A stretch of 64,000 nt of DNA from Moorella thermoacetica (GTDB lineage Bacteria; Bacillota; DSM-521; Neomoorellales; Neomoorellaceae), in NCBI RefSeq assembly GCF_001267405.1, contig NZ_CP012369.1:1-64000 (forward strand), given 5' to 3'. Position numbers and translations under genes: made by a program. How positions within the stretch are numbered: position 1 is the first letter of the stretch; every line of letters begins with the position of its first letter. The notes beneath the pieces are model-generated. The model was not told where the DNA came from. It made no database searches and saw only the letters and a list, made by a program, of their open reading frames with translations. Below are positions 2,670-62,269 of the stretch, in pieces.

Positions 2670-2695
2670 TAACCTGGAAGGCGAGGTGAGGGGGA

Positions 2696-2917
2696 ATCCA
2701 AAGGGTCATTATAACCACGCCGACTATCAGGTTGGACCAGTTCTTAAAGTGGAACGGCGTTGCTGCCACCGGCGGCCAGGCGAAAGAATTAATAACATCC
2801 GGGCTGGTCCGGGTGAACGGCCAAGTAGAAAGGCGGCGCAGTCACGAGCTGGTGCCTGGCGATGAGGTGGAGGTTAAGGGTGCCTGCTTTAAGCTTACAA
2901 CAGCTCCAGCTGATTAA
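2696..2917 (+). CDS. yaaA: S4-domain RNA-binding protein YaaA, probable ATC/ATT start
   Basis: A small S4-like RNA-binding protein found between dnaN and recF in Firmicutes; its exact role is unknown (ribosome assembly has been suggested for the family). The body reads LDQFLKWNGVAATGGQAKEL and then LVRVNGQVERRR, the S4 core. The first usual start codon in frame, TTG 2732, has no Shine-Dalgarno sequence and would cut off the conserved stretch before LDQFLKW. In frame, an upstream stop lies at 2687-2689. A strong GAGGTGA (2683-2689) is followed by ATC 2696, ATT 2708 and ATA 2711. I place the start at ATC 2696 provisionally. A one-base error in the GGGGG run (2690-2694) would instead bring GTG 2686 into frame. 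It overlaps recF. Confidence 0.75.
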   Translation: MQRVIITTPTIRLDQFLKWNGVAATGGQAKELITSGLVRVNGQVERRRSHELVPGDEVEVKGACFKLTTAPAD

Positions 2918-32120: not shown

Positions 32121-32183
32121 ATTTTCCTTTCATACTCGGCCCGATAATGAAACATACTAAAGGCGAGGTGAGGGCCGGCGCGC

Positions 32184-32837
32184 ATTGTAGAGGCTTATGT
32201 AGGCGAATACGGCAGCGGCAAATCGGAAAACGCTATTAACCGGGCTGTCTATTTACGCAGGCAGGGCCGGGTAGTCACCCTGGCCGACCTGGATACCGTA
32301 GAACCATGTTATACCCTGCGACCCCTAAAAAAAGAACTAGAAGAGCAAGGCATAGAGGTCTTGGGGTGGGAAACAGGACAGGTAACTGGCTGGGGTGAAG
32401 CCGGGACTGTACTTTACCCGGCGGTCCGCTGGGCCCTGCGCCGGGAAGGCAGTGTCATTATCGATGTCGGTTATGGCGTCGCCGGGGCAAGGACTTTACA
32501 TTTACTGGAGGACGTGGAGGAGAATCCCGACCTCCGGGTCCTGGCAGTTATTAACACTACCCGTCCGGCTACGGCCACGGTGCCGGCTATAATCGATCAT
32601 GTCCGCTCCCTGGGGCGGGTCGACGGTCTCATCAATAACACCCATCTGGGCGACGAGACCACGGCTGCCTTGGTACAGGAAGGTGCGGGGATGGTGACCA
32701 CCGCGGCCCGGGAGCTGGGAATACCGGTGGTGGCTACGGCTGTAGTGGAGGAACTGGCTTTCTTCCTGGGAGAGCGGGACTGGGAAGGTAATCCCGTACG
32801 GGTGCTTCATCGCTACATGCCCCGGGCCTTCTGGTAG
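32184..32837 (+). CDS. P-loop NTPase of unknown function, probable ATT start
   Basis: The frame is open from 32172 and encodes a Walker A motif, GEYGSGKSE, that would be lost if translation began at the first usual start codon (TTG 32361). Next to it come RQGRVVTLADLDTVEPCYTL, a strand with acidic residues like the second switch of SIMIBI/ParA-type NTPases, and later VIIDVGYGVAGARTL and GLINNTHLGDETTA. The best start is ATT 32184, nine bases after GAGGTGAGGG (32165-32174); no ATG, GTG or TTG exists between the in-frame stop (32169-32171) and the P-loop. About 218 residues. It precedes the korABCD operon after a 171-base leader. Role unknown; it could assist that enzyme's assembly, but nothing in the sequence proves this. 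Confidence 0.75.
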   Translation: MVEAYVGEYGSGKSENAINRAVYLRRQGRVVTLADLDTVEPCYTLRPLKKELEEQGIEVLGWETGQVTGWGEAGTVLYPAVRWALRREGSVIIDVGYGVAGARTLHLLEDVEENPDLRVLAVINTTRPATATVPAIIDHVRSLGRVDGLINNTHLGDETTAALVQEGAGMVTTAARELGIPVVATAVVEELAFFLGERDWEGNPVRVLHRYMPRAFW

Positions 32838-44447: not shown

Positions 44448-44489
44448 GCATGCAAGCATTATCAAGCATTATCCGGGGGAGGTGCATAA

Positions 44490-45302
44490 ATCATCATTAC
44501 GGTAGTCGGCATCAGGTTCAAAAAAGCCGGGAAGATATACTACTTTGACCCGGGCGGTCTGAAACTCAACAAGGGCGACGCCGTGATTGTAGAAACGGCC
44601 AGGGGCCTGGAATTAGGTGAAGTAGTCATTGCCCCCCGCCAGGTGGAAGAAACCGAGGTGGTCCAACCACTGCGGCCGGTTCTACGCCCGGCTACCCAGG
44701 CCGATCTGGAACAGGTGGCCGTAAACCGCCAGAAGGAAAAAGATGCCTTCGCTATCTGCCAGCAGAAAATCCAAGAACACGGCCTGCCCATGAAACTGAT
44801 AGATGTCGAATTTACCTTTGACGTCAGCAAGATTATCTTTTACTTCACCGCCGAGGGCCGGGTCGATTTCCGGGAGCTGGTTAAGGACCTGGCAGCTATT
44901 TTTCGCACCCGCATCGAATTGCGCCAGATAGGCGTCCGGGATGAGGCCAAGATGCTGGGCGGTCTGGGCTGCTGCGGCCGTCCCATCTGCTGCGCCACCT
45001 TTATGGGCGACTTTGACCCGGTATCCATCCGCATGGCCAAGGAACAGAACTTATCCCTGAATCCGACCAAGATCTCCGGGCTCTGCGGCCGGCTCATGTG
45101 CTGCCTGCGCTATGAAAATGACGCCTATGAAGATGCCAGGCACCGCTTGCCCCGCTGCGGGGCCATGGTCCGGACGCCGGCAGGCTGTGGACGGGTGACG
45201 GGGATTAATATCCTTAAGGAAAGGGTAACCGTAGAAATACCCGAGCAGGGGAGTATGGAGTTTCCTCTGGAAGCCATTGAGGGAGAATGTCATGAGCACT
45301 AA
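44490..45302 (+). CDS. ricT: PSP1/YaaT (RicT) protein, probable ATC/ATT start
   Basis: YaaT/RicT forms a complex with YlbF and YmcA that binds Fe-S clusters and promotes RNase Y-dependent RNA maturation in B. subtilis. The cysteine-rich core is GLGCCGRPICCATF and GLCGRLMCCLRYE. The family N-terminus is present but starts without a normal start codon: an in-frame TAA (44487-44489) is followed by ATC-ATC-ATT-ACG and then VVGIRFKKAGKIYYFDPGG. GGGGGAGGTG (44475-44484) is well placed for ATC 44490 or 44493 or ATT 44496. Starting at the first usual codon (GTG 44583) would remove about 30 conserved residues. It overlaps yabA. Confidence 0.85.
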   Translation: MIITVVGIRFKKAGKIYYFDPGGLKLNKGDAVIVETARGLELGEVVIAPRQVEETEVVQPLRPVLRPATQADLEQVAVNRQKEKDAFAICQQKIQEHGLPMKLIDVEFTFDVSKIIFYFTAEGRVDFRELVKDLAAIFRTRIELRQIGVRDEAKMLGGLGCCGRPICCATFMGDFDPVSIRMAKEQNLSLNPTKISGLCGRLMCCLRYENDAYEDARHRLPRCGAMVRTPAGCGRVTGINILKERVTVEIPEQGSMEFPLEAIEGECHEH

Positions 45303-62202: not shown

Positions 62203-62269
62203 GTTAAATATGGTCATTACCAATCCCTAAAAGAGGCTGGAATGCAATCCAACCAGCCATCACCTTTTT

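Follow-up and report, generated by a model that had tools for sequence, protein, structure and literature searches.

Which codon starts translation in genes that carry a strong Shine-Dalgarno sequence followed by an in-frame stop, but no ATG, GTG or TTG at their beginning? This question was raised by three genes, yaaA, an unnamed P-loop protein gene and ricT (yaaT), in the first 64 kb of the 2.53-Mb single-contig Moorella genome G000; this 64-kb stretch is referred to as the window. Comparison with related genomes leads us to consider it very probable that ricT and yaaA are translated from ATC in G000, and that the same arrangement is present at infC, at rny and, with CTG as the codon, at an AhbC-like and a Spo0F-like gene.

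Genes lacking a canonical start codon

Genes in the window were predicted by hexamer bias, and 63 window genes were compared with sequence stretches from seven other Moorella genomes. In G000, an ATG, GTG or TTG within reach of the start was missing from three genes only: yaaA, the P-loop gene and ricT. A canonical start codon was present in the other flagged genes of the window. An ATA at position 62208 was dropped as a candidate, the coding signal being found only from 22 codons later. The 3' end of 16S rRNA was taken as standard, in agreement with the spacing seen at canonical starts; in G000, the aligned spacing of these starts peaks at 4–6 (n=314).

At all three sites, an in-frame stop was read within or beside a strong Shine-Dalgarno sequence, as originally predicted. 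A TGA inside this sequence is not a separate oddity, since a spacer of 3 or 6 bases behind GGAGGTGA (ending in GGTGA) necessarily brings the TGA into frame. When the same loci were compared in related Moorella, the lack of a canonical codon proved to be conserved for ricT (9 of 10 genomes), for the P-loop gene (8 of 10), and for yaaA in G000 and its nearest relative, G010. Since the lack is common to relatives, chance does not account for it. It had also been proposed that three cases in 64 kb are unusual. Another 20 stretches of the genome, each of 20 kb and together holding about 360 genes, yielded one verified non-canonical case, and the three cases therefore represent a local excess and not the genome rate. 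The genome-wide rate is based on a 16% sample together with two strict pattern searches of the whole genome.

The ricT start

The features of ricT are as follows:

Positions 44475–44484, + strand: Shine-Dalgarno sequence GGGGGAGGTG, duplex energy -14.6 kcal/mol
Positions 44493–44495, + strand: proposed start codon ATC, aligned spacing 7, placed by comparison of homologous codons
Positions 44493–45302, + strand: ricT (yaaT); NF041131 (RicT) 325.8 bits, cut-off 70; PF04468

The leader contains an in-frame TAA (44487–44489) followed by three consecutive candidates, ATC 44490, ATC 44493 and ATT 44496. Among the 10 Moorella genomes with the gene (G000 included), seven have ATA and three have ATC as the homologous codon, always four codons ahead of the motif VVG[IV]RF; the spacer is variable, and codon-like conservation begins at this ATA/ATC codon. 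The one genome of the ten with a canonical codon, G002, has an ATA preceded by GTG one codon earlier. Outside the genus, the homologous codon, at an unchanged distance from the motif, is ATG (7), GTG (4) or TTG (6) in 17 of 19 readable genomes, with one of the remaining two having ATA and the other an ATG farther upstream. Because ATC 44493 is the codon homologous to the canonical starts of the orthologues, it was chosen as the start in G000 over 44490 and 44496. Translation of ricT from an AUH codon (AUA, AUC or AUU), namely ATC 44493, is thus well supported by these alignments.

The yaaA start

The features of yaaA are as follows:

Positions 2683–2689, + strand: Shine-Dalgarno sequence GAGGTGA, in which TGA 2687–2689 is an in-frame stop
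Positions 2696–2698, + strand: proposed start codon ATC, 6 nt past the TGA; the same ATC is also present in G010, at 6 nt, and in G005, at 5 nt
Positions 2696–2917, + strand: yaaA, encoding an S4_2 domain protein (Pfam PF13275, E=8.9e-22) at the yaaA position before recF

The product scored 64.1 bits against TIGR02988 (YaaA), under the curated cut-off of 84.75. The ATC is flanked by matching neighbours in G000, G010 and G005. In G005, it lies 5 nt after GGAGGTGA and a GTG is in frame, yet this GTG is inside the Shine-Dalgarno sequence. The other Moorella use instead an ATG two codons upstream, and the ATC is homologous to the canonical starts of the orthologues only approximately. A start at ATC 2696 is supported, on the basis of three closely related genomes. 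Of the ATC/ATT starts in the original prediction, those of yaaA and, after correction to ATC 44493, ricT were supported; that of the P-loop gene (ATT 32184) is probably wrong (see below).

The P-loop gene

The features of the P-loop gene and its upstream region are as follows:

Positions 32153–32159, + strand: CATACTA, a -10-like element of the sporulation-sigma type, kept in most Moorella; putative promoter
Positions 32165–32171, + strand: Shine-Dalgarno sequence GAGGTGA, in which TGA 32169–32171 is an in-frame stop
Positions 32175–32180, + strand: CCG GCG, the likeliest region of the translation start, with GCG at spacing 6; TTG replaces CCG in G010
Positions 32184–32186, + strand: ATT, the originally predicted start, judged unlikely (spacing 12, conserved Arg codon before it)
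Positions 32178–32837, + strand: P-loop protein gene of an unnamed family, downstream of bofA, with orthologues across Clostridia

The protein had no match in Pfam, NCBIfam or PDB. CATACTA is a candidate promoter element from which a transcript would begin near the Shine-Dalgarno sequence, and in several Moorella the sequence GTATG is found about 17 nt upstream of it.

Among the 10 congeners, a canonical start is absent in 8; the exceptions are G010, in which TTG stands immediately ahead of GCG, and G002, in which an ATG is in frame. An infC-type AUH start codon would be expected at normal spacing and as the first conserved codon. ATT 32184 has an aligned spacing of 12, which is rare in G000 (4 of 314 canonical starts), and codon-like conservation begins two codons before it, at GCG CGY. 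Moreover, in 20 of 20 orthologues the conserved motif has its first Ile preceded by an Arg, for which differing codons are used. ATT 32184 is thus probably wrong as the start.

In our judgement, there is about an even chance that the gene starts instead at GCG 32178 or at the preceding, variable codon (32175). The aligned spacing of 6 at GCG, the conservation of GCG/ACG and CGY (Arg) behind a variable spacer, the invariant Arg, and the TTG immediately before GCG in both G010 and G025 all favour this region. However, GCG does not belong to the near-cognates of AUG, and we know of no example of a native GCG start; codon 32175 (AAA, AAG, CCG or CCA) is a still less likely start. Alternatively, translation might begin at the GTG within the Shine-Dalgarno sequence and undergo a +1 frameshift, as could be suggested by G002, in which the in-frame ATG is at the homologous place in a sequence one base shorter. 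We consider this improbable, since the genomes have no slippery site in common and the GTG frame of G015 stops after two codons (GTG AAG TAA). The distant orthologues in L022, L027 and L029 are likewise without an obvious ATG, GTG or TTG start.

infC and rny

As a known AUH case, infC (encoding IF3) serves as a positive control inside the same genome. All ten Moorella with the gene have GGTGA-NNN-ATT behind a strong Shine-Dalgarno sequence, the arrangement in G000 being GGAGGTGA-CGC-ATT. The original prediction cited infC as the established AUU case, and the infC-type layout does recur in the genome, being found also at rny, the AhbC-like gene and the Spo0F-like gene. The rny and Spo0F-like cases came from the pattern searches of the whole genome.

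G000:C1, about 1006491–1007990 (L206:1501–3000): rny (RNase Y), proposed start ATT, layout GGAGGTGA-AAAACA-ATT

The closest named match of this RNase Y is that of Moorella stamsii (89% identity), in keeping with the assignment of G000 to Moorella. In all ten Moorella holding the gene start, the rny start codon would be an ATT or ATC located exactly 6 nt past the TGA, behind a Shine-Dalgarno sequence of about -16 kcal/mol. An AUH codon (ATA, ATC or ATT) at spacing 5–7 was also found outside the genus, in other genera of the family and in other orders. Named genomes with this arrangement are those of Lucifera, Veillonella, Propionispira, an Acidaminococcaceae, Syntrophomonas, Tepidanaerobacter, Romboutsia, Anaerotignum, Anaerosalibacter and Monoglobus, and the sampled loci of Bacillus, Paenibacillus and Lachnospiraceae have ATG or GTG.

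In a survey of 105 rny loci, a canonical codon was present at spacing 2–9 in 58 and absent in 47. In 39 of these 47 loci, AUH occupied the in-frame slot at spacing 5–7, as compared with 3 in the 2–4 slot and 2 in the 8–9 slot. This excess corresponds to a binomial p <1e-9 at an assumed AUH rate of 25% with Moorella excluded, a value to be read with the reservation that related genomes are not independent. The N-terminus of RNase Y is an Ile-rich hydrophobic helix, which raises the likelihood of an AUH codon, and this is accounted for because the slots were compared within the same loci. The 39 AUH loci could be divided into 21 with no ATG, GTG or TTG from the upstream stop to the AUH codon and 18 with an in-frame GTG inside the Shine-Dalgarno sequence, or a farther canonical codon, that could in principle serve. 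A possible ACG start is seen for rny in L264 (Bacillota MAG GB_MAG17_124), where GAGGGGGTGA is followed by ACG at spacing 5 and a canonical codon is absent at Shine-Dalgarno spacing.

IF3 itself differs within the genus, G000 and G010 having VKLRLN at the position where the other eight Moorella have VKLRPN (L099). The Arg adjoining this Pro to Leu change is presumably equivalent to the E. coli fidelity residue R99, and the change might loosen start selection.

Other candidates in the genome

At one and the same position of the AhbC-like radical-SAM gene, seven Moorella carry CTG, three carry GTG and one carries ATG, and G011 has TTG there; CTG thus takes the place of an ordinary start. The Spo0F-like gene (L173) has the layout GGAGGTGA-GCTGGT-CTG, with CTG conserved in 10 of 11 congeners. 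Its leader GAGGTGAGCTGGT ahead of the start codon is identical in 10 of 11 Moorella and persists in G012, a conservation exceeding the level of a spacer. An ATC start is possible for modC (L159), though an in-frame GTG sits inside its Shine-Dalgarno sequence.

Three other candidates were rejected: 1) a membrane protein gene (L077:14070–14825) with an apparent ATT start is N-terminally truncated in G000, a longer upstream frame being present in nine homologues (G010, other Moorella and G012); 2) a match at L072:8497, which we take from its protein sequence to be prfB, was set aside as a likely RF2 frameshift gene; and 3) a match at a CTG of ilvC was dropped, as it is followed in frame by a GTG whose leader is rich in purines.

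Alternative explanations

Sequencing or assembly slips, offered in the original prediction as the rival account, would mask a GTG of the Shine-Dalgarno sequence that is truly in frame. A one-base change at yaaA or the P-loop gene would indeed frame the GTG of GAGGTGA, and at yaaA this GTG is in frame in G005. However, congeners whose genomes were assembled independently show these layouts too, which refutes slips for ricT and the P-loop gene, and the yaaA layout has equal length in G000 and G010. In addition, the GTG would itself be part of the Shine-Dalgarno sequence, and pairing upstream of the framed GTG in G005 is weak. We therefore regard slips as very improbable.

The same low probability is given to the view that the true starts are TTG 2732 (yaaA), TTG 32361 (P-loop gene) and GTG 44583 (ricT), which are the first in-frame ATG, GTG or TTG of each gene and would yield shorter proteins. 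Such starts would cut away conserved N-terminal residues, among them the Walker A motif GEYGSGKS of the P-loop protein, and would leave the strong pairing upstream for poor pairing before TTG 2732 (near zero, 0.1 kcal/mol) and GTG 44583 (-4.4 kcal/mol). Decay into pseudogenes might be suspected, as another ATT-like gene in G000 proved to be a truncated copy, but this is also very improbable: the frames of ricT and the P-loop gene are full-length, with no internal stops, and their products share 74–99% protein identity with those of 9 other Moorella.

Proposed mechanism and relation to known systems

In the mechanism proposed for these genes, a near-complete Shine-Dalgarno helix of the GGAGGTGA type would hold the 30S subunit and thereby place fMet-tRNA on the AUH codon 5–7 nt downstream, so that the first residue would be Met. 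AUH starts are weak and are as a rule screened out by IF3. The products would therefore be expected at a low level and, like that of infC, to vary with the activity of IF3; for ricT, yaaA and rny, control by IF3 is to this extent a suggestion.

AUU starts are listed for E. coli infC and pcnB in PMC13009471. Like the proposed starts of ricT, yaaA and rny, the AUH start of infC in E. coli and other bacteria lies behind a strong Shine-Dalgarno sequence; infC regulates itself through IF3 feedback, whereas the likeness of the other three genes to it is one of sequence layout. The AUU start of pcnB, which encodes poly(A) polymerase I, limits expression, as found by experiment (Binns and Masters 2002, as reported in PMC13009471). 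As RNA-decay genes, pcnB with its AUU start and rny with its putative ATT start are alike, but pcnB encodes a different enzyme in a different phylum. In S. aureus, cvfC1 (AUU), ccpN and citZ (both AUA) have mapped starts with extended Shine-Dalgarno sequences and give about 10–30% of the AUG yield; these starts are backed by ribosome profiling and reporters, and that of ccpN is conserved to Bacillus (PMC13009471). They share with the present cases the phylum Bacillota and the combination of AUH with an extended Shine-Dalgarno sequence, but the genes differ and the Moorella cases are predicted from sequence. Streptomyces sigR starts at GTC behind AGGAGGTG, was missed by annotation and is repressed by IF3 (PMC5472188). 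It resembles our genes in having a non-canonical start, but differs in its codon and in that IF3 repression has been demonstrated.

Non-AUG starts aided by an extended Shine-Dalgarno sequence are thus already known, and the list of genes with an AUH start can apparently be extended by ricT, yaaA and rny; a literature search, which covered few subscription journals, found no published AUH start for any of the three. Gene callers restricted to ATG, GTG and TTG would truncate, extend or miss such genes, which would leave AUH starts miscounted. Asking which in-frame slot behind the Shine-Dalgarno sequence holds AUH provides a comparative method by which more cases can be found.

In Bacillus subtilis, RicT directs RNase Y as its specificity factor. 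This, together with the layout common to infC, rny and ricT, suggests a common control of the three genes, a reading that we rate as rather unlikely. Moorella would then tune RNA decay through IF3, with a drop in initiation fidelity raising infC, rny and ricT together, and with the P-loop protein possibly made from GCG. The most interesting result is the breadth of the rny AUH codon across Bacillota. That such a codon comes back at rny among Moorella, the Negativicutes and several lineages of clostridia points to translation initiation as a step at which RNase Y synthesis is controlled, in parallel to pcnB in E. coli.
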